A stretch of 11,661 nt of DNA, taken from positions 1 through 11,661 of the forward strand of contig CAMCIX010000019.1 of the NCBI GenBank assembly GCA_945875045.1, in the 5' to 3' direction. Below, piece by piece: positions 1-11,661 of this stretch. Source of the DNA: an uncultured Clostridia bacterium (GTDB lineage Bacteria > Bacillota > Clostridia > Oscillospirales > Acutalibacteraceae). The notes beneath the pieces are model-generated. The model ran no database searches. It saw only the letters and a program-made list of their open reading frames with translations, and was not told the origin of the DNA. The position numbers and the translations under genes were made by a program. How positions within the stretch are numbered: the first letter of the stretch is position 1; each line of letters opens with the position of its first letter.

Positions 1-3000
1 CCCTTACCCGCTCCAACACGCTTACGAGCATGGTAATGATAAAAATATCCTAATGTTGAACCATGACGTTCTGGACCTACAGGTGGATAACCATTTATAG
101 CAATAGCTAATCTCCTTGCCGCAGCATTAGAACTCGCAAAAACATCACCGCCTATTCGGACATATGCGATTGCAGCTTTTTGAGGAATAGGCATACAAGG
201 AAAGTATGTCGTTCGGGTTACATTTTTTCTCTTAAATGTTACTTTTGAGGCAATCCAATAATAATCTTGATAGCGTTTTGTTTGTATTACTGCCTTTGCT
301 TTGGAAATATTTTTTTCAACAGCTTTAGTGACAACCGTTGTTGCACTTTGAAACAATACTGTTATTCTATTCCACAGCCAACTTAGACCTATGCTCACTG
401 CTGAAGAAAAAGAATACCATGATTGTTTAAATTGTGGAGTTGACATATAGCTTGTTGAAATTGCAACACACACCGTAGCTAATATTGCAATACCTAGGAA
501 CGTCAAATCATCAACCAGCAAGAAATGTCCTGTGATATCATCAAAATTAACCGAATTGTTATTGCAATACGCAAACAAATTCATTCCAATAATGTTATCA
601 TTATTCAATAACATCATACTCGGCTCATCAGCATTAATAAAGCTACAAAACTCGGGGTTATAATACCTTGACTGTAAGTAGTAATATCCCGTCTCGCTGT
701 CAAAATAATAGCCACGGTAGCGCATTGGGTTGATTGCTCCTACCGTATTTGCCAAAGAGCCTGTCGCGGATAAAACCTTGCCCCATGCGTCATATGTATA
801 TGATACTACCAAAGCGCCGTTTAAGTCAAGTATGTCTTCAATATCACCCTGAATATTTTTAAGGTAGATATATTCCGTTCCGTTAAGATTAAATCCTATA
901 AGCGAATTTTCGGCATTATAGCGGAAATAAAGCGTGTTTGTTCCGTCATACTGTCCCGTAATTCTGCCGTCCACCGTAGTGTAATAGGTGGTAATTCCGT
1001 TTACTGTCTTTTCGGTGCGGATGCCGTTATCGTCATACTTGTAACTGTATGTATTCGTGCCGTTTGTAATCGACGAAAGCCGTCTTCCCGCAGTCCAGCT
1101 ATATGTGTAGCCGTTATAAGTAAGTAGATTGCCAAGTGAATCATATGTAAGTGCATTTCCGTCAAACGAGGTTAAAAGGTCGCTCCAAACAGAATTACCG
1201 TATGTGTATGTGACGGTAGATGTCGGAGTTCCGCTAACCGTTTCGGAGGTTGTATAAGGATAGTGTTTTACACTCTTTATATTTCCGCTTACGCCCTCGT
1301 ACTCATAAATAACCGTTTCGTTTAATTCCTCATCGTCAACCCTTATAAGCTGTCCCGCATTATCGTAATAATACCGTTTTTCTTTGCTTTCGGTATTATT
1401 ATCAAGAGGCGGAAGTTCATTTTCTCCGAGTTCATAATAGTCGCCGACCGTTTCGGTTACAGATATAATATTCCCGTAATCATCATAGTTGTAGGTATAA
1501 TTGCTCTCCGTACCGCCAAAGGTGTTTTTAATGGTCATGGGCAACTTATCTGAATTATAGGTGTAATCCGAATTTAAAACGCTGTTTACTCCGTTTTTAA
1601 CCGTAACGTCACTTATGTTTTCATCATCATCAAGCACGGCAGAATATGTAAAGCTACCGTAATTTAGACTGTTTTTGGTAAAATCGGTAGAAAAACTTTG
1701 CCCGTTAAAGATTTCGGTTATGCGCTCCATATCGGGTACTGTTTCGCTGTCGGTAATCAGCTCATATTCTTCGCCTAAATAGCCGGGCGGAAGTTCTAAT
1801 CTTTCAAAATTCTCTTTTATATAAGAATATTTTTCGGTCAGCTCCCCGTCCGCACCTATATCGCTTACCGTGACAGTATTTTCCGTAAATATGGTTTTTA
1901 CATTGTTTATGCAGTCGGTCTTTGAGGTCAGTTCGCCGTTTTCGTCATAAGTATATGTATAGGCAAGCGTATCACCGTAACGAAGCTCTGTAATATTGCC
2001 GTCGGTGTTATAGGCATACGAAACGCTCTGACCATTGGCGTATGATACGCTTGACAATAGTTCCTTTGCATCGTCGGTGTAGCTATAAACCGCAAGCGCA
2101 GTATTGCCCGCACGAACCTCCTCGACTTTTTGATTACCGTTTGTAAGAACCGTGTAGCAGCTTGCCCTGATTTCGGACAGCGTGCCGTCCTCTGCATAGT
2201 AATACCTTATACCTGAATTGACTTCTTGACCGTTGTTGTTGTATGAATCGTTGGCGGGCGTGCTTCTAAGCCCGTCATAATTCGGATTGTATTCCGCCTT
2301 GCTAAGCTTTTGCTTTACTCTTCCGTATATGTCGTAAACGGTACGGCTCTCTACCCCATTTTCATCTGCGGTGCGGATAACATCTCCGTTTAGGTTATAA
2401 TCATACGCGGCGTATTTATAATCTGGGTCGCCCTCACTGTTCTGCTGTTCGGATAATAGCCACCCGACAGTATTGTGACAGCTTGTAACGGTTTTACCGT
2501 CCGAACTGCTCTCACTGCTTAAATAACCGTTGCTGTCATAGGAATAGCTGGTTGTAATTCCGTCCGACATCAAAGTATTTACCGAGCCGTCGGCATAATA
2601 AGCATATCTTGTGTTTTCGGTTTCCTTGCCGTTAAGCTCTTTTACGGCCGTAAGAACATTGCCGTTAGCGTCATAGGTATAGCGGCTCACTTCACCGTCC
2701 GAGTTTTTGGATTTCAAGAGATTTCCATCTAAATCATAGGTGTTATACTCTGCATAAGTTTCATCGCCGTTTATTTCCGTTACACCTACGGTATTACCGG
2801 ACAAATCATATGAATACCTTATCTTTCCCCCGTCAGCGTTTTCAGAAACCGCAACGTCACCGTATATATTGCAATAAATATTTTGCTGAACGCCCTCGTC
2901 CGTACTGCTGAAAGTCAGATAATTATATCTATTATATATATACCTTGCAGTAATTTTGCCGTTTTCGGAAAGAGTTAAAGAATTATCCGAAGAATCATAC

Positions 3001-3812
3001 GCATAATCGGTGGTATTGTCGTCGCTGTCGGTAATGGACGACACAGAGCCGTCGGTTGAATACGCTATCCCTGTAAGCGTTTTGCCGAACGCATCCGATA
3101 CCCTTGTAAGCTTTTCTCCAATATAATCATAACGGTAGGTCACGGAAGATAATACTCCCGTCACGGTCTGAAGTCTGCCGTTTTCGTTGTATGAATAATT
3201 AACTGTTCTACCAGAACAGTCGGCAACAGAGGAAAGCCGTCCGTTATCGGCATATGCGTAGGTATATTCTCTGCCCACGCTGTCGGTCACCTTTTGTATT
3301 TTGCCGTTTAAATCAACATCTATTGAAACCGTGTTGCCGTTTCTGTCCGAAATAGAAATAAGATAGCCGCTCTGATTAAAAACATAGGTTAAGCCGTCTT
3401 CACCCTTGAAATCAAAGCCTCCCGCACTGTTTGCGGTAAGGGACGCACGGCTGTAATCACAAACATACTCGCCGCCAGAAAGCTTAAAGCCGTATCGCCT
3501 GCATACCTCATCAACAATGAAATCGGCTTTTTCCTCAGCGAGGCTATTTGCCTCAGCCTCAGCCTTTTGGGATCTTCTGCTTACCTCTTTCAAGAGCAGC
3601 TTATATCCTTTTCCGGCAATAATGGTTTTTGTAGTATATTCCTGCCCGTTGTTAAGCTTATTACATTTAAGCAATACCGGCGAGCAGTGCAAATAATAAC
3701 CGCGCCGTTCCGAGTCGCCGTTAAACCAATTGTAGCCGCCTTTCGAATAGAGCACCTCAAGACAGAGGTTATTTTCGCTCTCGGTAGGCTCGATAGGTAT
3801 ATATTTTTTCAT
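1..3812 (-). CDS. RHS/YD-repeat protein, C-terminus beyond the left edge
   Basis: The minus-strand frame is open from ATG at 3812 to the window edge: about 1270 codons with no stop. AGAAAGG (3830-3824) lies 11 nt upstream of the start. Residues 1-110 form a compact non-repetitive domain with GGYNWF, RGYYLHCSPV and KLLLKEVSRRSQKAEAEA. From about residue 125 (GLTYVFNQSGYLISI, then DRNGN) the protein becomes YD repeats such as REYTYAYADNGRL and NYSYNENGRL. The RHS-associated core signature GYYFDSETGYYYLQSRYY sits near residues 1033-1050. After DDITGH (about 1092) the sequence changes to a hydrophobic stretch and then a basic tail with GPERHG and YHYH near residues 1255-1265. In the RHS family the repeats form a shell around a variable C-terminal toxin. 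No signal peptide is visible, unlike many Gram-positive wall-associated RHS proteins. The RHS identity is certain. A toxic tail is inferred from position, and its activity is not recognised. Any immunity gene would lie outside the window. Confidence 0.93.
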   Translation of the reverse strand, partial: MKKYIPIEPTESENNLCLEVLYSKGGYNWFNGDSERRGYYLHCSPVLLKCNKLNNGQEYTTKTIIAGKGYKLLLKEVSRRSQKAEAEANSLAEEKADFIVDEVCRRYGFKLSGGEYVCDYSRASLTANSAGGFDFKGEDGLTYVFNQSGYLISISDRNGNTVSIDVDLNGKIQKVTDSVGREYTYAYADNGRLSSVADCSGRTVNYSYNENGRLQTVTGVLSSVTYRYDYIGEKLTRVSDAFGKTLTGIAYSTDGSVSSITDSDDNTTDYAYDSSDNSLTLSENGKITARYIYNRYNYLTFSSTDEGVQQNIYCNIYGDVAVSENADGGKIRYSYDLSGNTVGVTEINGDETYAEYNTYDLDGNLLKSKNSDGEVSRYTYDANGNVLTAVKELNGKETENTRYAYYADGSVNTLMSDGITTSYSYDSNGYLSSESSSDGKTVTSCHNTVGWLLSEQQNSEGDPDYKYAAYDYNLNGDVIRTADENGVESRTVYDIYGRVKQKLSKAEYNPNYDGLRSTPANDSYNNNGQEVNSGIRYYYAEDGTLSEIRASCYTVLTNGNQKVEEVRAGNTALAVYSYTDDAKELLSSVSYANGQSVSYAYNTDGNITELRYGDTLAYTYTYDENGELTSKTDCINNVKTIFTENTVTVSDIGADGELTEKYSYIKENFERLELPPGYLGEEYELITDSETVPDMERITEIFNGQSFSTDFTKNSLNYGSFTYSAVLDDDENISDVTVKNGVNSVLNSDYTYNSDKLPMTIKNTFGGTESNYTYNYDDYGNIISVTETVGDYYELGENELPPLDNNTESKEKRYYYDNAGQLIRVDDEELNETVIYEYEGVSGNIKSVKHYPYTTSETVSGTPTSTVTYTYGNSVWSDLLTSFDGNALTYDSLGNLLTYNGYTYSWTAGRRLSSITNGTNTYSYKYDDNGIRTEKTVNGITTYYTTVDGRITGQYDGTNTLYFRYNAENSLIGFNLNGTEYIYLKNIQGDIEDILDLNGALVVSYTYDAWGKVLSATGSLANTVGAINPMRYRGYYFDSETGYYYLQSRYYNPEFCSFINADEPSMMLLNNDNIIGMNLFAYCNNNSVNFDDITGHFLLVDDLTFLGIAILATVCVAISTSYMSTPQFKQSWYSFSSAVSIGLSWLWNRITVLFQSATTVVTKAVEKNISKAKAVIQTKRYQDYYWIASKVTFKRKNVTRTTYFPCMPIPQKAAIAYVRIGGDVFASSNAAARRLAIAINGYPPVGPERHGSTLGYFYHYHARKRVGAGK

Positions 3813-3919
3813 GTTTTTAAATTCCTTTCTCCGAAATTTTCAGGTACCGCATACCATCTGTAATCGGGAATATATCGCCTGTCAGACGAATAATCACAGC
3901 AATCCACAAGCACGATATA
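3809..3919 (-). pseudogene. Orphan 3' end of a gene upstream of the RHS gene
   Basis: A minus-strand frame different from the helicase frame is open from just after a TAG at 3922-3920 to TGA at 3811-3809. From the GTG at 3913 it spans 34 codons and contains CDYSSDRRYIPDYRWYAVPEN. Its stop overlaps the RHS start codon as ATGA, the usual arrangement of translationally coupled genes, and it holds the RHS ribosome site. It has no plausible start of its own and overlaps the last codons of the truncated helicase. I read it as the surviving tail of a gene once in operon with the RHS gene, joined to a helicase fragment by a deletion or recombination near 3910-3920. I do not recognise the protein. Chance openness of a 34-codon frame cannot be excluded, but the ATGA overlap and the protein-like composition argue against it. 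Confidence 0.45.
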
Positions 3920-4985
3920 CTATTTTATCTGTGTGCTTGTATATACCGTACATACGGTCAACATCGCTTATGCTCGATACCGTCTGTGCGACGCAGTCGG
4001 GCACAGTTTCATAAAGCTCTCGCACCCATTTTTTTGCAACATGGGACGGGCAGGTAATAACATTAACCTTGTCGCCTTTTTTGCCCGCACTTTTTTGATA
4101 GGCATACAGCGCCGCTGCGCCTATTTTTGTTTTGCCCGCACCGCAGCTCGCCGCAAGTATTCCGAGCTTTTCGTGCTGTAGACGGCGTTTAAGAGCCTCC
4201 GCTCCTGCTAACTGGGCGTCGTAGAGCGAGTAACCGTTCTTTGAGCGGATATATTCGTTCGCCTCCCTTAATTCCTCGCGTATTTCCTCCTTTGAGGGCT
4301 TGAATACCGGCACAAAGGTATTCTGTATGCGTTTTGCAATCGCTGTGCCGAAGGCTTCAAGGTAATTTGTAAATGAGCGTATACCGCTGAATGCGGAATC
4401 TCCGCGGACGCCGCCGGGTATTTCTATCTCGCCGGATTTAAGCCCGTCGGTAAGCACCTTGGATATTTTCCTTTCATCTTCCTTTATGCTCATTGTATAA
4501 GCGCAAAGAGGAAGGCTCACGCTGTAAACACTAAGCCTTTTTAAAAGCTTTCTGTCGATAAGCTCACGTATAAAGTATTCGCTCCAACAAGGAAAAAGCG
4601 GAACCGACAGCTTTCGGTCAAGCTCCGAAAACAGCTCCTCCTCGTTTTTGCAGAAGAAGTACATATTTCTCGGTTTTTCCTTTCCGTCGTCGGTAAGCTC
4701 GTCGTCCTTTACCTTCATAACACATTCGGCGCAGGTTTCGTAACTCACAGTCCGCCTTTCGTAATTTCTCACCCCTTTACTCGAAAGCACGGTATCTGTC
4801 TTTTCGCCCGGCAGTCTTATAGAGACGCTGCAATCGCTGAATATTGCGTCCGACATAGACTGCACCGTTTCCGGATAACCTCCGAACCTTAATACGATAA
4901 TGTTTTTATTTCCGTCAAACACCACCGTATCCGCGTAGTTTGTGACGCTGATTACATTTTTGTCGTCCTTAATTGTAATCGGCAT
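3894..4985 (-). pseudogene. Truncated SF2-type DNA helicase, N-terminal part only
   Basis: This 363-codon reading frame has a Walker A (SCGAGKTK, residues 280-287) preceded by a Q-motif-like SLYDAQLAGAEAL (253-265) and followed by a motif Ia-like NVITCPSHVAKKW (308-320). These are the first ATPase motifs of superfamily 2 / SNF2-like DNA helicases. Residues 1-250 are an N-terminal region I cannot assign, with cysteines at 85, 88 and 112. The frame ends at YRACGLL about 75 residues after Walker A, before a DEAD/DEAH box or the second RecA lobe, so it cannot be a working helicase. Similar N-terminally extended helicases occur in conjugative elements of Clostridia (from memory, not searched). ATG 4985 has no ribosome site of its own, an in-frame TGA lies a short way upstream, and no other start codon lies between; translation may be coupled to a leader ORF. 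The loss of the 3' end coincides with the orphan tail next to the RHS gene, which suggests a rearrangement junction. Confidence 0.75.
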
Positions 4986-5016
4986 CAGCGTTTGGCATTT
5001 TTCGCTGATAACACAT
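4969..5016 (-). CDS. 15-codon leader ORF overlapping the helicase start
   Basis: ATG at 5016 has a good ribosome site, AGGAAGG at 5027-5021. The frame reads MCYQRKMPNADADYN and stops at TAA 4971-4969, overlapping the helicase ATG (4985) by 17 nt in another frame. The helicase ATG has no Shine-Dalgarno of its own, so ribosomes ending this short frame could restart on it. That arrangement fits translational coupling or a control peptide. The peptide resembles nothing I know, and it could be only a by-product of the ribosome site. Confidence 0.35.
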   Translation of the reverse strand: MCYQRKMPNADADYN

Positions 5017-5031
5017 CAGTCCTTCCTGTTT

Positions 5032-5057
5032 TTTAAGGCGGTAAGGCATACCTTAAA
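5032..5057 (-). promoter_or_regulatory. Inverted repeat in the helicase 5' leader
   Basis: Arms TTTAAGG (5032-5038) and CCTTAAA (5051-5057) enclose 12 nt. In minus-strand RNA they form a 7-bp hairpin that ends five bases before the AGGAAGG ribosome site of the leader ORF. It could influence translation start or be an operator. No T-run follows, so it is not a terminator. Confidence 0.35.
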
Positions 5058-5128
5058 GAAATTCCGAATACAGTGTAAAATTCTTTTCAGATATGCTTAC
5101 CGTTCTGACCTTACGGTTTATGTAAAAA

Positions 5129-5176
5129 CAAAAAAGACCGACCCTCTCTGCATAAATACAGAGTTAAGGTCGGTCT
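5129..5176 (-). terminator. Second of two tandem minus-strand terminators
   Basis: Minus-strand RNA folds AGACCGACC (5176-5168) with GGTCGGTCT (5143-5135), a perfect 9-bp stem extended by an inner CTCTG/CAGAG helix (5146-5150 and 5159-5163), and is followed at once by TTTTTTG then TTTTT. No T-run follows on the plus strand. It lies between the promoter at 5328-5356 and the helicase leader, so transcription of the helicase from that promoter would have to pass it. Confidence 0.85.
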
Positions 5177-5229
5177 ATCTTGTGATTACCGAATTTGATT
5201 TGTGGGAGATTGAGGTTACCCTAAAACGC

Positions 5230-5268
5230 AAAAAAGCCGGACTTCTCCCTTTAAAGGAAAAATCCGAC
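5230..5268 (-). terminator. First of two tandem minus-strand terminators
   Basis: Minus-strand RNA pairs 5268-5256 with 5248-5236 in a 13-bp stem whose three G-U pairs are allowed only on this strand (plus-strand RNA would have A-C mismatches there). A TTTTTTG run follows. The wobble pattern shows that the minus-strand transcript is the functional one. It ends the short RNA that starts near 5321. Confidence 0.85.
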
Positions 5269-5321
5269 CTGTTTCCTCAAACCAATGTCTTCTGAGAGAC
5301 ATCACACTCAAACCATGTTAC
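5230..5321 (-). ncRNA. Short terminated RNA or leader with a repeated GGTTTGAG
   Basis: The strong promoter at 5356-5328 should start RNA near 5321 and the terminator at 5268-5230 should end it, giving about 90 nt. Near its 5' end the octamer GGTTTGAG occurs twice (5313-5306 and about 28 nt later), flanking a small hairpin with arms TGTCT and AGACA. No convincing ORF is present: the first ATG is followed by two codons and a stop, and the next has no ribosome site. It may be an independent small RNA or the start of a leader that ends at tandem terminators before the helicase. I do not recognise an Rfam family. Confidence 0.55.
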
Positions 5322-5327
5322 AAGTGT

Positions 5328-5356
5328 ATTATACTCTATGCAATAATGGTTGTCAA
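5328..5356 (-). promoter_or_regulatory. Sigma-A promoter, minus strand
   Basis: Perfect TTGACA (5356-5351), 17-bp spacer and perfect TATAAT (5333-5328). It drives the ~90-nt RNA toward the tandem terminators and the helicase. It stands back to back with the plus-strand promoter at 5386, with 29 bp between the two -35 boxes. Confidence 0.85.
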
Positions 5357-5385
5357 CCGAGAATGCGGTTTTTGTTTTTAAAAAC

Positions 5386-5413
5386 TTGACATTTTCACAA
5401 AGCGTGGTATAAT
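5386..5413 (+). promoter_or_regulatory. Sigma-A promoter of the candidate antitoxin RNA
   Basis: Perfect TTGACA (5386-5391), 16-bp spacer and perfect TATAAT (5408-5413). Predicted start is near 5420. No ORF with a ribosome site lies before the terminator at 5473-5512, so the product should be a short RNA facing the small peptide gene on the other strand. Confidence 0.8.
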
Positions 5414-5419
5414 ATAAAT

Positions 5420-5512
5420 GAAATAAGGCAAACCGATAGACGGCTAGCCCCAAAAAAAGCGTTAAAAAGATTTAGCCGCTAGTTTTGCAGACCGGGCGGC
5501 TACTTCTTTTTT
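5420..5512 (+). ncRNA. Candidate antitoxin RNA, convergent with the small peptide gene
   Basis: From the predicted start near 5420 to the T-run after the hairpin at 5473-5502 this RNA would be about 93 nt. It runs opposite to and overlaps the 3' end of the peptide mRNA, including its last four codons, stop codon and terminator. It also carries TTAGCCG (5472-5478), complementary to CGGCTAA in the 5' leader of the peptide mRNA. This is the layout of TxpA/RatA and BsrG/SR4 type I systems, where a convergent antisense RNA pairs with the toxin mRNA 3' region. It is predicted from promoter and terminator only. Confidence 0.65.
5466..5512. terminator. Bidirectional terminator shared by peptide mRNA and antisense RNA
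   Basis: TAGCCGC (5473-5479) pairs with GCGGCTA (5496-5502) around a 16-nt loop. On the plus strand it is followed by CTTCTTTTTT; on the minus strand by AATCTTTTT. It can therefore end both convergent transcripts. The stop codon TAG of the peptide is the first part of the minus-strand stem. Confidence 0.75.
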
Positions 5513-5565
5513 ATTGCAATGTCAGTATATAAAACAACAATTAAAATTATTATTATGTACTCCAT
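5500..5565 (-). CDS. Tiny hydrophobic peptide, candidate type I toxin
   Basis: A 21-codon frame starts at ATG 5565 and stops at TAG 5502-5500. It is preceded by a very strong ribosome site, AAGGGGG (5580-5574), 8 nt from the start. The peptide begins MEYIIIILIVVLY, continues through TDIA and ends in KKK: one short membrane-spanning stretch and a basic tail. That is the usual shape of membrane-acting type I toxins, and the short isoleucine/valine-rich core recalls the Ibs peptides of E. coli, although no homology is claimed. It has its own promoter (5662-5634), a ~60-nt leader, and a convergent antisense RNA overlapping its 3' end, with a shared terminator. It is too short for ordinary gene callers. 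Toxicity is inferred. The strong ribosome site together with a dedicated promoter and terminator makes a chance ORF unlikely. Confidence 0.75.
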   Translation of the reverse strand: MEYIIIILIVVLYTDIAIKKK

Positions 5566-5633
5566 CGGCAACGCCCCCTTTCGAGAGCAAGACTTAGCCG
5601 TTTACCGTTTAAGGTTTACCTTATTCCGACAGT

Positions 5634-5662
5634 ATTATACCATTATATCACGGTTTTTGCAA
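5634..5662 (-). promoter_or_regulatory. Sigma-A promoter of the small peptide gene
   Basis: TTGCAA (5662-5657), 17-bp spacer and perfect TATAAT (5639-5634). Start is expected near 5627, giving a leader of about 62 nt and an mRNA of about 160 nt to the shared terminator. A second TATAAT just upstream (5647-5642) may be an alternative -10. Confidence 0.7.
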
Positions 5663-5723
5663 GCAAAATAACGCCTTATTTTCTAATGACAAAAAGAATA
5701 AAAATAATTTCCGAAAAACAGCC

Positions 5724-5761
5724 TGTCAAACTTGACAAATAGAAAATATATGCTATATAAT
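5724..5761 (+). promoter_or_regulatory. Sigma-A promoter with an operator-like palindrome over its -35 box
   Basis: TTGACA (5732-5737), 18-bp spacer and TATAAT (5756-5761). The -35 box is the right arm of the inverted repeat TGTCAA-ac-TTGACA (5724-5737), a possible repressor site. The stretch 5663-5723 between this and the peptide promoter is AT-rich and shows nothing else I can name. The transcript meets a terminator about 65 nt later. Confidence 0.75.
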
Positions 5762-5767
5762 ACAGGC

Positions 5768-5830
5768 GGTGTAGAAAATACACCCTGTCTTCTTTTGAGG
5801 AACGCCTTTTGCATGTGGCGTTCCTCTTTT
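5768..5830 (+). ncRNA. Short two-hairpin RNA or attenuated leader upstream of the secreted hydrolase
   Basis: Transcription starting near 5768 gives a first hairpin, GGTGTA (5768-5773) with TACACC (5779-5784) around GAAAA, then a terminator hairpin and a T-run. ACAG (5762-5765) and CTGT (5785-5788) extend the repeat at DNA level. No ORF is present. It is either a ~65-nt small RNA or a leader in which reading on into the hydrolase gene would need antitermination. The gene has another promoter after this terminator. Confidence 0.5.
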
Positions 5831-5838
5831 GTTATTTT
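5797..5838 (+). terminator. Strong rho-independent terminator
   Basis: GAGGAACGCC (5797-5806) and GGCGTTCCTC (5817-5826) form a perfect 10-bp stem with a 10-nt loop, followed by TTTTGTTATTTTATTT. Only the plus strand has a T-run. A near copy closes the cassette at 11201-11239. Confidence 0.88.
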
Positions 5839-5850
5839 ATTTAATGATTG

Positions 5851-5900
5851 TTTACAGAACATTCCTTTTCTGATATAATTAACATAAGTCATTAATGTTA
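5851..5900 (+). promoter_or_regulatory. Promoter of the secreted hydrolase gene with an inverted repeat at the start site
   Basis: TTTACA (5851-5856), 17-bp spacer and perfect TATAAT (5874-5879); start is expected near 5886. TAACAT (5880-5885) and ATGTTA (5895-5900) form an inverted repeat centred on the start region, a plausible repressor operator. The ribosome site AGAAAGGA (5917-5924) follows, 9 nt before a GTG start. Confidence 0.7.
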
Positions 5901-5933
5901 CTATTATAAAACAAAAAGAAAGGACTGCTATTC

Positions 5934-8900
5934 GTGAAAGAAAAGAAGAGTAATTTGAATAGAATAATCGCATTGTTTTTATCAAGCCTATTAATTGTAC
6001 TCTCTGCAAACATTACAATGGTAACTGCACAGACTCTCCAACAAGACAATTATTCTGAACAATCAGCTTCGGAAGACAGTACATTCGTTTTATCAAAATC
6101 AAATATCCAGATCGGTGATGATTACTCGCCGAATGAAGCAGATACTGAAGAACCGGAAACGCCTTCATTCTTCAGCACGACCGATACTGTTGGTGACCCA
6201 ATGGTATACCTTACTCAGAAGTGGTTAAATCAAGAATATGGTGACGTCCCGGGATTTGGATCTGTTACGGAAAACGGGAAAACCGGTTGGAATGTTATCT
6301 ACGGCTTAACGCGTGCGTTGCAGCACGAATTGGGAATAACTGAGCTTGCCAACAACTTCGGACCGTCTACAAAAGCATTATATGCAAAAAATCCCTTACA
6401 TAGACAGGATGGTGTTACTGACAGAAAATTTGCCATATTGCAAGGTGCGTTATGGTGCAAAGGATATAATCCCGGATACTATCTTACAGAAGATCCTGAA
6501 ACGGGAATAGTCAGCTTTGAAGAGATTTTCAATGACAAGGTTGAAAAAGCAGTCATATCCTTAAAAACTGATGCCGGATTTATAAATCCGGACAGTGTTG
6601 TTACTCCGAATTTAATGAAAGCGCTGCTTTCAATGGATTCCTTTAAGCTTTTAAGCACCTATTACGGCGGAACATATGAAGTTCGTTCTATGCAGCAAAA
6701 GTTTAACCGTACATATGAAGAATACATAGGAGCCTTAGTACCTTGCGACGGTGTATACGGGAGAAGCACAAGCAAAGCTTTGGTATTTGCTTTACAGGCA
6801 GAGGAGGGTATGCCTGTAGGCACCGCAACCGGGAATTTCGGACCTGCAACAAGAAGCCATTGTCCTCAAATACCATACGTCAGAAATTCCAATGCCGCCA
6901 AGGATTATAACGGTAATTACTATACAGACGCTCAACTCTCGAGAATTATCGAACTTGTACAATTTGGCTTGTTCCTCAACGGCTTCGGAGACGGAATATT
7001 TGATGGAAAGTTCAATCCAGTGACGCAGCAGGCCGTCCTTGACTTCCAATCACATTATGCACTGCCGAGAACCGGGAAGGTAAACCTTGATACATGGATG
7101 TCACTCTTTATAAGCAGTGGCAACCCAAACCGTTCTGCTATAGCTGCGGATTGTGCTACAATACTCAATCCCGCGAAAGCAAAAACCCTTTACGACAACG
7201 GATACAGATATATCGGACGGTATTTGACCGGAACATATGCCGGTGGTCAAAGCAAAGCGCTTACCATAACGGAAGCTAAGATTATTTTAAAAGCAGGTTT
7301 ACGCTTTTTTCCAATTTATCAAACGAGCTCAAACAGCGAATCATATTTCACCCCCGAAAAAGGTATTTCAGACGCACAATCTGCAATAACGGCAGCTGAT
7401 GCTCTTGGATTGCCTGCAGATACGATTATATACTTTGCCGTGGATTTCGACGCCATGGATTACCAAATTACAAATAGCGTTATTCCTTATTTTGAAAAGG
7501 TTTCCGAAGAAATTGCCAAGAGCCGATATAAAGTCGGAGTCTACGGAGCGCGAAATGTTTGTAGCCGCGTTGCGAAAGAAGGTTATTCCTGCAGTAGCTT
7601 TGTAGGAGATATGTCTACCGGTTTCAGCGGAAATTTAGGCTTTAAAATTCCTGATAACTGGGCGTTTTCTCAATTTGCCAACCTTGAAGGCGACAATGCT
7701 TTAGGCTCTGGTGATGGAAGAATTGAAATAGATAAAGATGCTTTCTCGGGAAGAGATCAAGGAGTATCTAAGCTCAGATCAAGTAAAAAAGCAATATATG
7801 TTCTTCCCGGCTATTTAGGTTCAAGGCTTTACACTGCTGACGGAAACGAATATTGGGCAGATCAGGATAGGCTAAGCGCTGATATTGAAAATTATGTAAT
7901 TTGGGGTGAAACAAGCAACAGAAAAGATATTTTGAGGCTTGACGAAAACGGTGAAAATTCCAAAGTACATACTGATATATCCAAGGATTTTTACGGTACA
8001 GCTATGAATTCGGGTGATAACGGAGTATATAAAAACCTTGTCACCGCACTCAAAAAGCAATGTAAAGGTTATGATGTTGTTTTCTTCCCGTACAACTGGC
8101 TTGCCGACTTAAACGACTCTGCAAACGAGCTGCAAAATCATATTAATGACAACGGTTATGAAAGCATAGTCTTTGTCACCCATAGTACCGGCGGTTTATT
8201 AGCCGCAAGGTATATTGCAAAAAGCACCGCAAACAAAAGAAAGGTTGAAAAAGCCATTCTGATTGCTGCACCGCTTTACGGAACATATTATGCGCTTGAA
8301 CCGTTAGAATCCGGAAAGGTCGATTTGGTTGATAGTATATTAGCCGAGCAATTATCAAAAATGGGTATTGAAGGGCCTCTAAAATGGTTGGCATATCAAC
8401 GCACCTATAAATATGTACGTAAGGCAGTGCATAATTCTCCGACAACCTATCAGCTTTTACCAAGCATTGAATATTTAAAGCTTATGCCACAGTTGTACGA
8501 AGATGAATTTAAAAATGCTAAAGCAGTTACAACGCTTGATGAGTATTATAACATACTGAACCACAGTTCAAATCTCAACTCAAAACTTACTAACGGAAAT
8601 AACCGCAGTCATAAGATCTTCAGGAGCAATATTGGGGACATAGTATCAGTTTTGCAAAGCGTTGATACTACATTGATTGGTACAAGTAAAGGAATTAAAA
8701 CGTATTCTGTTGCACAGTATAAGATAGATGCTTTCGGAAAATCCGAAATGATAAGTATTTCAAAATCCAAAGACGGCGACGGAACAGTATTAGCTGCCAG
8801 CGCATTTGCACTAACTGCGGACGGAAGGCACAGGTTAAAATATAAAGATTTTGCTGACGAAGGTACATATGATCATATGGCTTTGGCTATGAACAAAAAA

Positions 8901-10094
8901 CCAATACAGTATGTATGCGATACCATTAATGGAAAAGCTTATGTGTCACCTGCTGAAGAAATTTCATTAATGTCAGAATCAGACGATAATATAGGAATGT
9001 CTGACAATATAAAAATCAATTATTCAAGCAACAAATTTTTAACTGTAAATATCTATGATGAGAGTAATAATAATGTTGCGCAAATTTCCGACAATAAATA
9101 CTTCGGATTTGATGGTGATAAATTTAGCTTTACTCCGCTTAATATTGAAGAAGATAATTGTCGAGCGGTAATTTATATGCCTAACAGTGGCTATCAAATC
9201 ACGTTCAGTTACGGTAATGAAGCCGGAGCTGTGGTTGATTTTGAGGCTGAGGTTTCAACCCTTGACGCCGACGGCTGGAAATCTGCCGGCGTCACCGATA
9301 CCAAAGCTCAAACATCGGAAAACGGTCTGCTCGCGTCGTATGACGGAACACAGAATATCATAAACGCTTCTAATATTTCAGAAATAGTTGGCGGCACGTT
9401 GCAAAATCACCTGACCGACTGGAAGCTACCGGCAAGTATGAAGCTTGACTTTAACACAGCGCAAAAAATCGAAATCACCGGTGAAAATGCACAGCTTGTT
9501 TCCTCTGGTCTTATTTGGAGTTCATCGGATGATTCTATTGTATCGGTCTCATCAGACGGAACCATCACAGCTACCGGTTACGGAAAAACTACAATATCTG
9601 CAACAGACGGAAACAAAATAGAAAGCTGTGAAGTAACCGTAAAATTAGATGTTCAATCAGTCAGCTTCCAAAATCTTGTTATGACGGTTGGCGAAAGAAG
9701 CGTAATCTCGCCTGCGTTCACGCCGATAAACGCAACACAGACAGATATGGTTTATACCTATGAGGAAGGAACCGTCATAAAAATTGACGAATACGGCGTT
9801 ATACACGCACTCGTACCGGGAACAATAATCGTAACAGGAACAACCTCCAACGGAGTCTCCGATACCTTTACTATCACCGTAACCGACGCAGATTTCACAA
9901 GAAAATCCGGTGATGTTAACGGTGACGACAGTGTAGACATAATTGATCTTGTCAAAGTGAAAAAGCATATTGCCGGTGCCTTTATCCTGACAGGAATAGA
10001 CTTCAACACCGCTAATCTTGATAAAAACGGCGATGTTAATTCCTCCGATTTGATTCTTTTACGCAAAATATTATTGAGCATTGATACAGAGTAG
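5934..10094 (+). CDS. Secreted peptidoglycan-binding / DUF1906 / LCAT-type lipase / Big_2 / dockerin protein
   Basis: This 1386-residue protein starts at GTG 5934, chosen by the AGAAAGGA site. Domains in order: a Sec signal peptide (basic N-terminus, hydrophobic 11-27, likely cut after VTA at 32); an acidic linker; four peptidoglycan-binding-like units (about 86-150, 159-235, 249-312 and 329-397, with repeated FGPSTK/FGPATR and DGxF motifs); a DUF1906/Rv2525c-like glycoside hydrolase-like domain (about 401-606, with NGYRYIGRYLTG and IIYFAVDFD); an alpha/beta hydrolase of LCAT type (about 618-1000) with nucleophile Ser751 in THSTGG, Asp947/949 in DGDGTV and His981 in YDHMA; a beta-rich region; two Big_2 domains (about 1165-1321); and a type I dockerin (1326-1386) with two calcium loops, DVNGDDSVD and DKNGDVNSSD. 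It should act outside the cell on wall and acyl-ester substrates, docked to a cohesin. The catalytic triad is read by motif. The true substrate is unknown. Confidence 0.92.
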   Translation: MKEKKSNLNRIIALFLSSLLIVLSANITMVTAQTLQQDNYSEQSASEDSTFVLSKSNIQIGDDYSPNEADTEEPETPSFFSTTDTVGDPMVYLTQKWLNQEYGDVPGFGSVTENGKTGWNVIYGLTRALQHELGITELANNFGPSTKALYAKNPLHRQDGVTDRKFAILQGALWCKGYNPGYYLTEDPETGIVSFEEIFNDKVEKAVISLKTDAGFINPDSVVTPNLMKALLSMDSFKLLSTYYGGTYEVRSMQQKFNRTYEEYIGALVPCDGVYGRSTSKALVFALQAEEGMPVGTATGNFGPATRSHCPQIPYVRNSNAAKDYNGNYYTDAQLSRIIELVQFGLFLNGFGDGIFDGKFNPVTQQAVLDFQSHYALPRTGKVNLDTWMSLFISSGNPNRSAIAADCATILNPAKAKTLYDNGYRYIGRYLTGTYAGGQSKALTITEAKIILKAGLRFFPIYQTSSNSESYFTPEKGISDAQSAITAADALGLPADTIIYFAVDFDAMDYQITNSVIPYFEKVSEEIAKSRYKVGVYGARNVCSRVAKEGYSCSSFVGDMSTGFSGNLGFKIPDNWAFSQFANLEGDNALGSGDGRIEIDKDAFSGRDQGVSKLRSSKKAIYVLPGYLGSRLYTADGNEYWADQDRLSADIENYVIWGETSNRKDILRLDENGENSKVHTDISKDFYGTAMNSGDNGVYKNLVTALKKQCKGYDVVFFPYNWLADLNDSANELQNHINDNGYESIVFVTHSTGGLLAARYIAKSTANKRKVEKAILIAAPLYGTYYALEPLESGKVDLVDSILAEQLSKMGIEGPLKWLAYQRTYKYVRKAVHNSPTTYQLLPSIEYLKLMPQLYEDEFKNAKAVTTLDEYYNILNHSSNLNSKLTNGNNRSHKIFRSNIGDIVSVLQSVDTTLIGTSKGIKTYSVAQYKIDAFGKSEMISISKSKDGDGTVLAASAFALTADGRHRLKYKDFADEGTYDHMALAMNKKPIQYVCDTINGKAYVSPAEEISLMSESDDNIGMSDNIKINYSSNKFLTVNIYDESNNNVAQISDNKYFGFDGDKFSFTPLNIEEDNCRAVIYMPNSGYQITFSYGNEAGAVVDFEAEVSTLDADGWKSAGVTDTKAQTSENGLLASYDGTQNIINASNISEIVGGTLQNHLTDWKLPASMKLDFNTAQKIEITGENAQLVSSGLIWSSSDDSIVSVSSDGTITATGYGKTTISATDGNKIESCEVTVKLDVQSVSFQNLVMTVGERSVISPAFTPINATQTDMVYTYEEGTVIKIDEYGVIHALVPGTIIVTGTTSNGVSDTFTITVTDADFTRKSGDVNGDDSVDIIDLVKVKKHIAGAFILTGIDFNTANLDKNGDVNSSDLILLRKILLSIDTE

Positions 10095-10105: not shown

Positions 10106-10633
10106 ATGAAAAAACTGAATACCAAACGAAAGATTATTATCTTCATTGTCGCCGTACTTTTCGTTATTGCCGTCATATGCTCCGCCGTCTTTGTTCACGG
10201 CTTGATACAAAAGCATCGCATAGCAACAAGAAAGCCCATTCTTAAGGTAATGTCCATGATCCCCGGTGGGTGGATAACACCACGGAAAGAAATTTATTAT
10301 ATTGTCTATGATAACGGCGACTATGAGGAGACCGAAGAATTTTCCACTTCGCAAGCAAAAACCTATGATTTGTATTTGTACGATGAGGAACATATGGATA
10401 AATCTGAAATTCCTGATACCATTCCCCCTTATGTTGATAAAATCATAGCTTATATAAAAGATAAGGGTTCAATTTACTTGACAGAAAGTTATTTTATATG
10501 TGGCGATCGATATTTTTTCACTGTGGATGGTGACCATGAATGCTTTTTGTACGAATACTTTCCGCAAAAAGATAAGGCAAAGCAAATTACCAAAGTGCAA
10601 AACCACGATATAGTATATGTCGAGCTTTATTGA
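10106..10633 (+). CDS. Membrane-anchored extracytoplasmic protein, candidate partner or immunity protein
   Basis: This 175-residue protein starts 11 nt after the hydrolase stop, with AGAGGGTG at 10091-10098, so the two are one operon. Residues about 10-33 form a single transmembrane segment (IIIFIVAVLFVIAVICSAVF) after a basic N-terminus (NTKRK), so the rest should face outside. The outer part has a conserved core, ATRKPILKVMSMIPGGWITP then EIYYIVYDNGDY, and a tyrosine/aspartate-rich C-terminal half with DRYFFTVDG and FLYEYFPQ. I do not recognise the family. A second copy follows directly. A small membrane-tethered outward-facing protein, duplicated behind a secreted hydrolase, is what an immunity protein to that hydrolase would look like. 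A chaperone or surface partner is equally compatible with the sequence. Confidence 0.85.
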   Translation: MKKLNTKRKIIIFIVAVLFVIAVICSAVFVHGLIQKHRIATRKPILKVMSMIPGGWITPRKEIYYIVYDNGDYEETEEFSTSQAKTYDLYLYDEEHMDKSEIPDTIPPYVDKIIAYIKDKGSIYLTESYFICGDRYFFTVDGDHECFLYEYFPQKDKAKQITKVQNHDIVYVELY

Positions 10634-10885
10634 TTTTCCCTGTAAATGCGTGATTGCATGAATAAGCAAAATGACGTACTTAAAATTATAATTTCATTTA
10701 TTGCCGGTATGTCCGTAATATGCGCCGCCTCTTTTGCTCGTGATTTGGTAAAAATACATCAAGCTGCGACAAGAAAACCTATTCTTAAGGTAATGTCCTT
10801 AATCCCCGGTGGGTGGATAACACCATGGAAGGAAATTTATTATATTGTCTATGATAACGGCGACTATGATGAAACCGAAGAATTT
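10226..10885 (+). repeat. Direct DNA repeat inside the two partner genes
   Basis: 10226-10342 and 10769-10885 are 117-nt ungapped copies that match at 109 positions by my count (about 93%). Only three of the differences change the protein (M to L, R to W, E to D). Sequence on both sides, still the same gene, is far more diverged. The two copies lie 543 bp apart and could support recombination. Confidence 0.85.
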
Positions 10886-11179
10886 CAATTAGCAGATATA
10901 GAAATCTAAAATTTATATTCGGTAGAGGACATAGAAACAGATTTAGAAGGAATGCCGGAATATTCAAAAAATAAAATTGATTATGTGAACAATCTGAAAA
11001 ACGGCAATATATATAATCTTTATTTAGTAGACAATAGATGTTTTTTCGATATTCATGATAGCAGAACACTGCAAAATGAATACACCGGTACAGTATTTGA
11101 ATATTTTCCTGAAAGCAATTCTGTAGAAAAGCTCGTACAGTTCAAAAAGAATTATACAAGGCATGTCGAGCCTTACTGA
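10658..11179 (+). pseudogene. Second copy of the membrane-anchored protein, broken by one in-frame TAA
   Basis: The frame aligns along its whole length with the preceding gene: transmembrane segment, ATRKPILKVMSLIPGGWITP core, and a C-terminal half ending FEYFPES...HVEPY. A TAA at 10907-10909 interrupts it after DIEI, and the same frame then stays open through NLYSVEDIE and MPEYSKN to TGA 11177-11179, so the lesion is one nonsense codon and not a frameshift. Without it the product would be about 173 residues, against 175 for the intact copy. ATG 10658 aligns with the first copy's start better than ATG 10646, and neither has a clear ribosome site. The internal ATG 10952 has AGAAGGA too close to serve. 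It is a recently inactivated duplicate, unless the TAA is read through or is a sequencing error. Confidence 0.8.
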
Positions 11180-11200: not shown

Positions 11201-11239
11201 AGAGGAACGCCTTTTGTCCTGTGGCGTCCCTCTTTTTTT
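11201..11239. terminator. Terminator closing the hydrolase cassette, possibly bidirectional
   Basis: AGAGGAACGCC (11201-11211) and GGCGTCCCTCT (11223-11233) form an 11-bp stem with one A-C mismatch on the plus strand (G-U on the minus), followed by TTTTTTT on the plus strand. The stop codon of the minus-strand S1-domain gene lies in the T-run, so the hairpin may also end that transcript, although its minus-side T-run is weak. It is nearly the same hairpin as 5797-5826. Confidence 0.85.
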
Positions 11240-11661
11240 ACCATCTTGCAAGAATCTTTCCGTATATCAGCTTACGTTCATAGCTGTATTTGGTTATAAC
11301 GATTATTACCTTATCCCCTATGTGAAAATCACTGTCGTACTGGTCGGCGGAATAGCTGCACAGGCAGTCAAGCTCGTCCTCAAGGCGGCAGAAAAGCCCG
11401 CCGCGATACTTTCCCATTATTACAGACGCACGCCTTGAATCTATAGGGTGCCGCAACTGGGCGCCGTCGAAGGGATGAGGCTGCGCCTTCTTTATAGATA
11501 CGGCAAGCTTCATATTATCGGGGTCATAGTATTTAATTACAGCCTCCTTTGTCTCGCCGGCGTGATACCTCTCCCGCAAATCGGGAATTGCGGCATACGA
11601 TACGTCCGAAACCACTGAAAAAGTCAAGCGAAATGTAGAAAATCGGTAGAAAATGTGGTAT
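11238..11661 (-). CDS. C-terminal part of an S1/OB-fold nucleic-acid-binding protein
   Basis: The minus-strand frame is open from the right edge to TAA at 11240-11238 (141 codons visible). The first start inside it is a TTG at 11627, without a ribosome site, so the real start probably lies outside. The part from SDVSYAAIPDLRERY to LAVSIKKAQPHPFDG looks like the end of one S1-type beta-barrel. The C-terminal 75 residues, with ASVIMGKYRGGLFCRLED, HIGDKVIIVI and KLIYGKILARW, look like a second OB-fold. S1 domains bind single-stranded RNA or DNA, and similar multi-S1 proteins occur in Firmicutes mobile elements, which fits the helicase remnant on the same strand. The low-complexity stretch nearest the edge (FYRFSTF) may not be genuine coding sequence, so the gene could be truncated there. 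Confidence 0.6.
   Translation of the reverse strand, partial: YHIFYRFSTFRLTFSVVSDVSYAAIPDLRERYHAGETKEAVIKYYDPDNMKLAVSIKKAQPHPFDGAQLRHPIDSRRASVIMGKYRGGLFCRLEDELDCLCSYSADQYDSDFHIGDKVIIVITKYSYERKLIYGKILARW
11635..11654 (+). repeat. Two copies of GTAGAAAAT
   Basis: GTAGAAAAT occurs at 11635-11643 and 11646-11654, one helical turn (11 nt) apart, at the point where the S1 frame loses its protein-like composition. It could be a binding site, a junction mark, or chance. Confidence 0.25.

Follow-up and report, generated by a model that had tools for sequence, protein, structure and literature searches.

What kind of gene pair occupies positions 5386-5662 of contig CAMCIX010000019.1, where an uncultured Clostridia bacterium of the gut appears to encode a 21-residue peptide on one strand and a short RNA on the other? 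A first-pass annotation of this locus, which lies within an 11,661-nt stretch that we call the window, proposed a type I toxin-antitoxin system in which a small toxin gene and an antisense RNA converge on one bidirectional hairpin. Our follow-up supported the type I reading through its conserved open reading frame (ORF), promoters, ribosome site and hairpin; the proposed terminator and overlap layout and the grouping with Fst were not supported. We find the locus best explained as a compact type I toxin-antitoxin system resembling bsrG/SR4, in which a panhandle would clamp the toxin RNA and the antitoxin would open it by displacement, and we put the probability of this overall explanation at roughly 0.8. 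That the locus is a chromosomal type I system of compact bsrG/SR4-like design we consider very likely, and the details of clamp and displacement are a model to which we give an even chance. Conservation, promoters, open frames, the polarity of the antitoxin terminator and a toxin-strand panhandle all have computed support; transcript ends, toxicity, repression and the order of events we infer.

Convergent genes and a strand-specific panhandle

The 21-codon ORF, the two convergent promoters and the central hairpin are all present where they had been annotated. On the plus strand, a TG-extended TTGACA-16-TATAAT promoter (5386..5413) matches the consensus at 12 of 12 positions and precedes a predicted antitoxin RNA of ~93 nt (5420..5512), the length originally proposed. 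The T-run at 5507-5512 marks its end, and a covariance-model match at 5419-5512 agrees with the prediction. On the minus strand, a TG-extended TTGCAA-17-TATAAT promoter (5634..5662, 10/12 consensus match) lies upstream of the putative toxin ORF MEYIIIILIVVLYTDIAIKKK (5500..5565; 21 codons, stop TAG), which was identified from the sequence and by an ORF search in relatives. The encoded peptide is hydrophobic and lysine-tailed, and the sequence upstream of its gene is GAAAGGGGG. Folding and T-run counts place the central hairpin, the predicted antitoxin RNA terminator, at about 5473..5502; its 3' arm overlaps the toxin stop codon, and the plus-strand sequence directly after it is TTCTTTTTT.

The antitoxin leader comprises an outer arm (5420..5434, plus strand) and an inner arm (5436..5447, plus strand), whose complements form the 3' outer and 3' inner arms of a predicted panhandle in the toxin RNA. 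The corresponding 5' arms lie in the toxin leader on the minus strand, the inner at 5594..5605 and the outer, with GGAAUAAGGUAAACC at the predicted 5' end, at 5613..5627. Arm comparison defined all four, together with RNAalifold and, for the outer toxin arm, folding as well. Strand-specific wobbles and folding lead us to predict a full-length toxin transcript of ~210 nt (5418..5627, minus strand) that spans the whole antitoxin gene; across genus-level loci, predicted lengths are ~205-296 nt.

The genus-level set was drawn from 46 leader matches, of which 34 loci were kept. Two matches were too short, seven had no recognisable toxin leader (score <26) and three were toxin-side leader matches (L007, L019 and L068 plus strand). 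The near-identical L053 was omitted from the genus-level alignment, the antitoxin model, and the cognate-pairing and accessibility sets. The ORF, ribosome site, hairpin and both promoters are retained in genus-level loci, which supports the original proposal. An antitoxin promoter matching the consensus at 9 or more of 12 positions stood at the right place in all 32 loci with enough sequence (12/12 in 28), and a toxin promoter of the same quality in 26 of 34 (at least 10/12 in 19); shuffles of the same stretches reached this level in about 10%. Around the locus (4800-6300), we counted 10 promoter-like sites against 4.0 expected. The antitoxin promoter is closer to the consensus than the toxin promoter, as would be expected of an antitoxin in excess supply.

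The two RNAs have 5' leaders of nearly identical sequence, so the ends of the locus are inverted repeats (arms 5405-5434/5613-5642 and 5431-5446/5595-5610). The differences between the two copies proved to be strongly directional. Across 23 core columns in 32 loci, 616 cells were identical; of the others, 10 were transversions, and the G-U wobbles fell 106 times on the toxin strand and 4 times on the antitoxin strand. Per available core site, the wobble rate was 23.9% for the toxin strand and 1.4% for the other, and all 32 loci leaned to the toxin strand. We picked these core columns as the stretch that pairs, and left out L045 and L060; over all 30 columns the counts were 146 toxin-strand and 22 antitoxin-strand wobbles with 34 transversions, the antitoxin-strand excess sitting in the last columns, beyond the predicted helix.

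The same polarity extends to diverged relatives. A significant arm was present in 73 of 95 diverged matches (identity-only alignment, p <= 0.01 by shuffles), and these 73 loci held 171 wobbles on the toxin strand and 24 on the other, with 95 transversions. For all 95 matches the counts were 220 and 38, with 169 transversions. By genome, 36 leaned to the toxin strand, none to the other and 2 were tied, or 41, 1 and 4 when the p filter was removed; P-values for the wobble counts treat related loci as independent, a dependence that the per-genome sign test softens and does not remove. The arms themselves vary widely between loci (GGCAACC, GGCTACC, GGAGCTATC, GGAGTTGACC and others), each accompanied by a similar partner.

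Folding gave a consistent picture. RNAalifold, applied to 31 toxin-strand sequences, found the panhandle unprompted, with 21 panhandle pairs. Pairing holds in 97.4% of the cells of the full 28-pair structure, and both sides have changed in 8 pairs. None of 500 shuffles reached any of the five values measured, and a one-column shift of the partner cut pairing to 57% or less; the structure itself was derived from the alignment on which it was tested. Of 651 panhandle cells, 632 can pair on the toxin strand and 535 on the other, and in all 32 loci the toxin strand forms the more stable duplex (-41.5 versus -28.2 kcal/mol). Mean pairing energy is also better for cognate than for non-cognate arms (-41.3 versus -37.8 kcal/mol). 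For the ~210-nt toxin RNA of the window, the minimum-energy fold includes the panhandle. Since the leaders differ by G-U wobbles that lie mostly on the toxin strand, we expect the toxin transcript to extend across the antitoxin gene; the simplest reading is that it continues to the 5' end of that gene and there closes a 5'-3' panhandle.

Such readthrough bears on the central hairpin, which had been described as a bidirectional terminator shared by both RNAs. The hairpin pattern fitted 28 of 34 loci, and the remaining 6 were unscored for T-runs. Past the hairpin, the longest T-run measures 6-7 in 27 loci and 2 in one when read in the antitoxin direction, and 2-3 in 23, 4 in one, 5 in three and 6 in one when read in the toxin direction. 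Judged by these runs, the hairpin is a predicted terminator mainly for the antitoxin; bidirectional termination is no feature of the family, and the window, with its 5 T in the toxin direction, is exceptional. The predicted overlap of the two RNAs, given the panhandle and this polarity, is therefore the entire antitoxin RNA and not the ~45 nt of 3' ends first suggested.

We also considered where the longer toxin RNA might end. On the minus strand, the inner antitoxin arm (5436-5447) together with 5431-5435 forms a terminator-like hairpin. By a simple rule, this leader hairpin is terminator-like on the toxin strand, with a weak tail, in 17 of 31 loci including the window, a count that has no shuffle control. 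Another terminator-like site lies within 157 nt beyond the panhandle in 16 of 31 genus loci, the window not among them (0.9 expected from mononucleotide shuffles); these sites are outside the predicted antitoxin RNA and may belong to neighbouring genes. In the diverged set, the bases before the conserved GG of the antitoxin are A-rich (mean 5.8 A and 1.0 T of up to 9) and hence U-rich on the toxin strand, which suits a terminator but also a promoter-proximal stretch.

A shared RNA frame with unlike peptides

A rule requiring a ribosome site and a start recovered the toxin ORF in 33 of 34 genus-level loci. It missed L039, whose ribosome site is GAGGG and whose frame looks open in the alignment. 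Genus-level peptide types include MEYII...IAIKKK (21 residues; the window and L009), MEYYFLVVLVLIVATGYISSIKK (23), MDLYVFIILVLIFATGYIVAIKKK (24) and MVTYSELFLFSTLIVSVITLVYNITKKK (28), and 34-residue forms also occur. Among the 95 unique diverged matches, 77 have a hydrophobic ORF ending at the hairpin; one such peptide, MEYITLILIIVFYTVIAIKKK, is close to that of the window, and a few others, such as those of 54 residues (L090) and 33 residues (L140), may be false picks by the rule. The ratio of non-synonymous to synonymous changes (pN/pS), computed without the first and last codons, is 0.41 for 12 genes of 23-residue peptides and 0.33 for 8 genes of 28-residue peptides, which points to selection on the small hydrophobic ORF in these two groups. 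The peptide genes of the window and L009 differ by 3 synonymous and 4 non-synonymous changes, a single pair with too few differences to judge selection.

The window peptide could not initially be placed in a named family, and this is still so, with no Pfam or NCBIfam match. Several paralogues of 28-29 residues come near Pfam PF16935 (Hol_Tox, putative holin-like toxins), the best (MVTYSEL...KKK) scoring 22.5 bits against a cut-off of 23.3; neither the 21-residue window peptide nor the MEY/MDY-type relatives tried match this family. One RNA frame thus carries unlike peptides. Read on the opposite strand, the antitoxin U-tract yields the lysine codons of the toxin, and we offer this as a second reason for the lysine tails.

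We surveyed the reach of this frame with several searches. Querying blastn with 5386-5662 gave 10 matches on 7 contigs of the genome of origin, the window locus counted, and matches in 18 of 60 genomes, again with that genome counted. The antitoxin leader AAGGCAAACCGATAGACGGTTAG, at up to 3 mismatches, is present in 15 of 70 genomes of the genus, including the genome of origin, and a reversed control pattern in 0 of 70. Exact matches in named genomes amount to 32 stretches, each metagenome-assembled and carrying the title Clostridia, Oscillospiraceae or Ruminococcaceae; where record titles name the sampled animals, these are ruminants. Three viral contigs carry the leader motif, and blastn found no match to the locus in phage and plasmid records. 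A covariance model built from 33 antitoxin RNAs matched 71 of 345 genomes of the order (45 of 162 genera) and, at E values of 1e-4 or less, 32 of 341 genomes in the class, of which 27 belong to other orders; the model is sequence-led, with 6 pairs, and these genome counts rest mainly on sequence. Relatives found by blastn, and by the covariance model in order and class, show that the locus is no product of chance, and that its RNA frame, more than its peptide, is the conserved part. The frame thereby extends from the genus of the window to 27 genomes of other orders in the class, often in multiple copies, and the family supplies a searchable model. Scanning the window with Rfam gave no match at the locus (a mir-1303 match at 5120-5189 was far under its cut-off), and our search of the open-access literature, in the text accessible to us, found no description of this clostridial family, of which an earlier one may exist.

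Some loci depart from the single-copy arrangement. Tandem toxin-antitoxin arrays occur in L139, L112 and L166, and the array of L139 holds five copies (481-1916) spaced 332-347 bp apart. Leaders with no recognisable toxin leader (L011:1518, L031, L032, L042, L054, L059 and L067) are possibly decayed copies or orphan antitoxins. L007 and L019 have a different inner part of the antitoxin leader (AATAAGGCAAACCCATTGATAAACGGTTAG in L019), which falls outside the motif and suggests an uncounted sub-family.

Mechanism and related systems

The pieces can be joined into a working model. Transcription of the minus strand would give a toxin mRNA that folds back on itself, its 5' leader pairing with the 3' end, which is an antisense copy of the antitoxin 5' leader. 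The resulting panhandle would clamp both ends of the RNA, leaving a long-lived and poorly translated message in which a local hairpin, GCUCUC-GAAA-GGGGGC (5573..5588, minus strand), is predicted by folding to mask the ribosome site. What had been annotated as a very strong ribosome site is present as GGGGG (5574-5578), and is predicted to be shut within this hairpin. From the plus strand, the stronger promoter would supply the ~93-nt antitoxin ending at the central hairpin, and its leader would displace the toxin leader from the 3' end, opening the clamp. In keeping with this step, the antitoxin leader pairs with the toxin 3' end more strongly than the toxin leader does in 31 of 31 loci (-64.0 versus -41.3 kcal/mol), as expected because it is a perfect antisense of that end. 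The long duplex would presumably be cut by RNase III, by analogy with bsrG, bsrE and txpA; such decay of antitoxin-toxin duplexes has precedent among B. subtilis antitoxins (PMC6562991, PMC4147584). When antitoxin supply falls, surviving message would be translated into the 21-residue membrane peptide.

The closest studied toxin-antitoxin system is bsrG/SR4 (PMC6562991) of B. subtilis (phage SPbeta), together with bsrE/SR5. Both bsrG/SR4 and the clostridial locus consist of convergent genes; in both, the toxin RNA is predicted to run past the antitoxin terminator and close a 5'-3' main helix, the ribosome site sits in a local hairpin, and the lysine-rich tail and stop overlap the antitoxin U-tract and terminator. 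The Rfam bsrG consensus (RF01412) has such a 5'-3' main helix. When folded, the SPbeta bsrG RNA (L177:12627-12914, 288 nt, 210 bits to the Rfam model) formed a main helix between positions 1-23 and 241-260; past this helix, and within the SR4 gene, lies a terminator hairpin belonging to bsrG. The SR4 T-run is complementary to the bsrG coding end, AAAAGAAAAAATAG, and no T-run longer than 3 comes after the central hairpin in the toxin direction. Run on the genome of the window, the Rfam BsrG model returned four matches at E values up to 1, all at members of the clostridial family. On our model the locus works like bsrG/SR4, and the two probably share ancestry. Of the three systems with which the locus had been grouped (TxpA/RatA, bsrG/SR4 and Fst), bsrG/SR4 fits best.

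The two systems differ in economy. SR4, delimited by a promoter-like site and a T-run, is ~180 nt long, whereas the clostridial antitoxin is ~93 nt and, unlike SR4, begins at the panhandle arm itself. The bsrG RNA has its own terminator hairpin inside the SR4 gene, whereas the window has no separate one beyond the helix, only the weak terminator-like leader hairpin. Exchange of toxin ORFs has been reported at bsrG/SR4 loci (PMC6562991), so exchange within one RNA frame is not new. More tentatively, and with somewhat less than even confidence, we propose leader mimicry, in which a better-pairing antitoxin leader replaces the toxin leader, and a frame with exchangeable peptides that would rank, unrecorded, among the commonest type I systems of Clostridia. 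If mimicry is true, one arm would have two uses, clamping the toxin RNA onto itself and, as part of the antitoxin, invading that clamp. The family also makes the role of the 5'-3' helix in bsrG-type messages testable by compensatory mutation on a ~280-bp locus.

A number of observations weigh against the compact bsrG/SR4-like explanation. The four BsrG-model matches scored 37.8, 34.9, 31.6 and 24.0 bits against a cut-off of 55, the window locus was absent from them, and the model also had matches in 2 of 14 control genomes (B. subtilis and M. jannaschii), above the cut-off in one. Conversely, R1, our clostridial antitoxin covariance model, had no match in the bsrG region, and for these reasons the locus cannot be filed under RF01412. 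The toxin promoter was not found in 8 of 34 genus-level loci; seven antitoxin leaders have no recognisable adjacent toxin leader, at least two of them (L042 and L054) being cut by the sequence end; and no panhandle arms were recovered from 22 of 95 diverged matches or from two genus loci of 34 (L045 and L060). The antitoxin strand can fold too, as any inverted repeat requires, and 27 of 32 loci reach at least 15 leader-end pairs on it. Nor does every locus favour its cognate partner, which takes first place in 11 of 31 loci (median rank 3) and pairs less well than the average partner in 2. No strong toxin terminator lies at the end of the panhandle. The window is one of five loci among 28 with at least 4 T after the hairpin in the toxin direction, and a short toxin RNA of ~165 nt, lacking the panhandle, may also be made from it. 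Finally, folding predicts a masked ribosome site whether or not the 3' end is present, which means that translation need not depend on the clamp itself.

This last point bears on the first of four alternatives, activation of the hok or AapA kind, in which 5'-3' pairing silences the full-length mRNA and 3' trimming opens the ribosome site. Such a route is established for aapA3 of Helicobacter pylori, where a long-distance 5'-3' interaction is relieved by an activating 3' truncation (PMC6733600). The aapA/IsoA and hok/Sok systems share 5'-3' pairing of the toxin mRNA with the clostridial locus (PMC6733600), whose panhandle is conserved. In the aapA and hok systems, however, this pairing hides the ribosome site and truncation activates it; here the site is predicted to be masked by a local hairpin instead of the 3' end, and its predicted unpaired probability across 31 loci is 0.08 at full length and 0.02 after 3' truncation. 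Since thermodynamically predicted masking is unchanged by the 3' end, we consider hok-like activation unlikely and prefer a stability clamp, whose details stand at about even odds.

A layout like that of Fst, the par locus of pAD1, would have both RNAs stop at one bidirectional hairpin, overlap at their 3' ends only, and act through the terminator loop and direct repeats. The likenesses comprise convergent promoters, a central hairpin, a hidden ribosome site and a toxin-RNA 5' end held in a helix (PMC7472228), the last two as predictions for the clostridial locus. In the window, TTTTT follows the hairpin when read in the toxin direction, and there is a 12-nt Fst-like direct repeat, AAGA[T/C]TTAGCCG, by which the antitoxin hairpin arm is complementary to the toxin leader; in the window the cognate repeat ranks 2 of 31. 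Fst/par has the DNA direct repeats DRa and DRb and a shared bidirectional terminator (PMC7472228), but in the clostridial locus inverted repeats dominate, the panhandle is strand-specific and the hairpin ends mainly the antitoxin. Toxin-direction T-runs of 2-3 in 23 of 28 scored loci, direct-repeat pairing that is not locus-specific (-12.9 cognate versus -12.2 non-cognate, 31 loci) and strand-specific leader wobbles that this layout leaves unexplained make it rather improbable; the identity of layout with Fst that had been claimed is thus unsupported. The peptides differ as well: the Fst type has a PXXXG motif (PMC7472228) and ~33 residues (PMC8167048), whereas the window peptide has 21 residues and no proline.

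To an equal degree we doubt that the peptide is a non-toxic, small regulatory membrane protein under antisense RNA control. Twenty-one residues with one hydrophobic stretch are no proof of toxicity, but very different peptides occupy one RNA frame, some resemble Hol_Tox below the cut-off, and the closest architecture, bsrG/SR4, belongs to a toxin-antitoxin system (PMC6562991). Least probable is that the inverted repeats are a DNA feature (mobile-element ends or two operators) and RNA pairing is incidental, which would suit the multi-copy and tandem occurrence and the repeats at both promoters, but predicts similar transition rates where core sites show 23.9% versus 1.4%, and does not fit arms that change together while differing greatly between loci.

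The compact bsrG/SR4-like reading also bears comparison with two further groups. In txpA/RatA of B. subtilis the genes are likewise convergent and the peptide hydrophobic, and the overlap is ~75 nt (PMC4147584); the RatA model (RF01776) had no match in any genome, with the controls likewise silent, and the likeness is drawn from description only. Clostridioides difficile carries several copies of convergent type I systems, among them CD2517.1-RCd8 and CD0977.1-RCd11 (PMC6563280, PMC7699646). These are set apart by their descriptions: the toxins have 34-53 residues, and the accessible portions of the two papers make no mention of a panhandle.

Neighbourhood of the locus

Two further elements with perfect promoters flank the locus. 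On the plus strand, 5732-5845 holds TTGACA-18-TATAAT and, within ~90 bases, a hairpin found by eye (GAGGAACGCC...GGCGTTCCTC) with a T-rich tail. It is a candidate small RNA or leader before the gene for a 1386-residue protein; the genome of origin was its sole match among 40 genomes, and a second, partial copy lies at 11202-11240. On the minus strand, 5234-5356 holds TTGACA-17-TATAAT followed by a 17-pair hairpin and a T-rich tail before a helicase-like ORF, and may be a leader or attenuator, or a plain terminator.

Larger genes surround these elements. A 1270-residue RHS-repeat protein (3-3812, minus strand) runs off the contig end, and a 363-residue ORF (3894-4985, minus strand) contains only the beginning of a type III restriction (ResIII) domain and looks truncated. 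The 1386-residue protein (5934-10094, plus strand) looks secreted and has peptidoglycan-binding, Rv2525c-like glycoside hydrolase, Big_2 and dockerin domains, along with weak LCAT/alpha-beta hydrolase matches. Beyond it, two adjoining plus-strand genes (10106-10633 and 10646-10909) encode related small membrane-anchored proteins with near-identical middles (PILKVMS.IPGGWITP.KEIYYIVYDNGDY); the second is shorter than its neighbour and possibly frameshifted.

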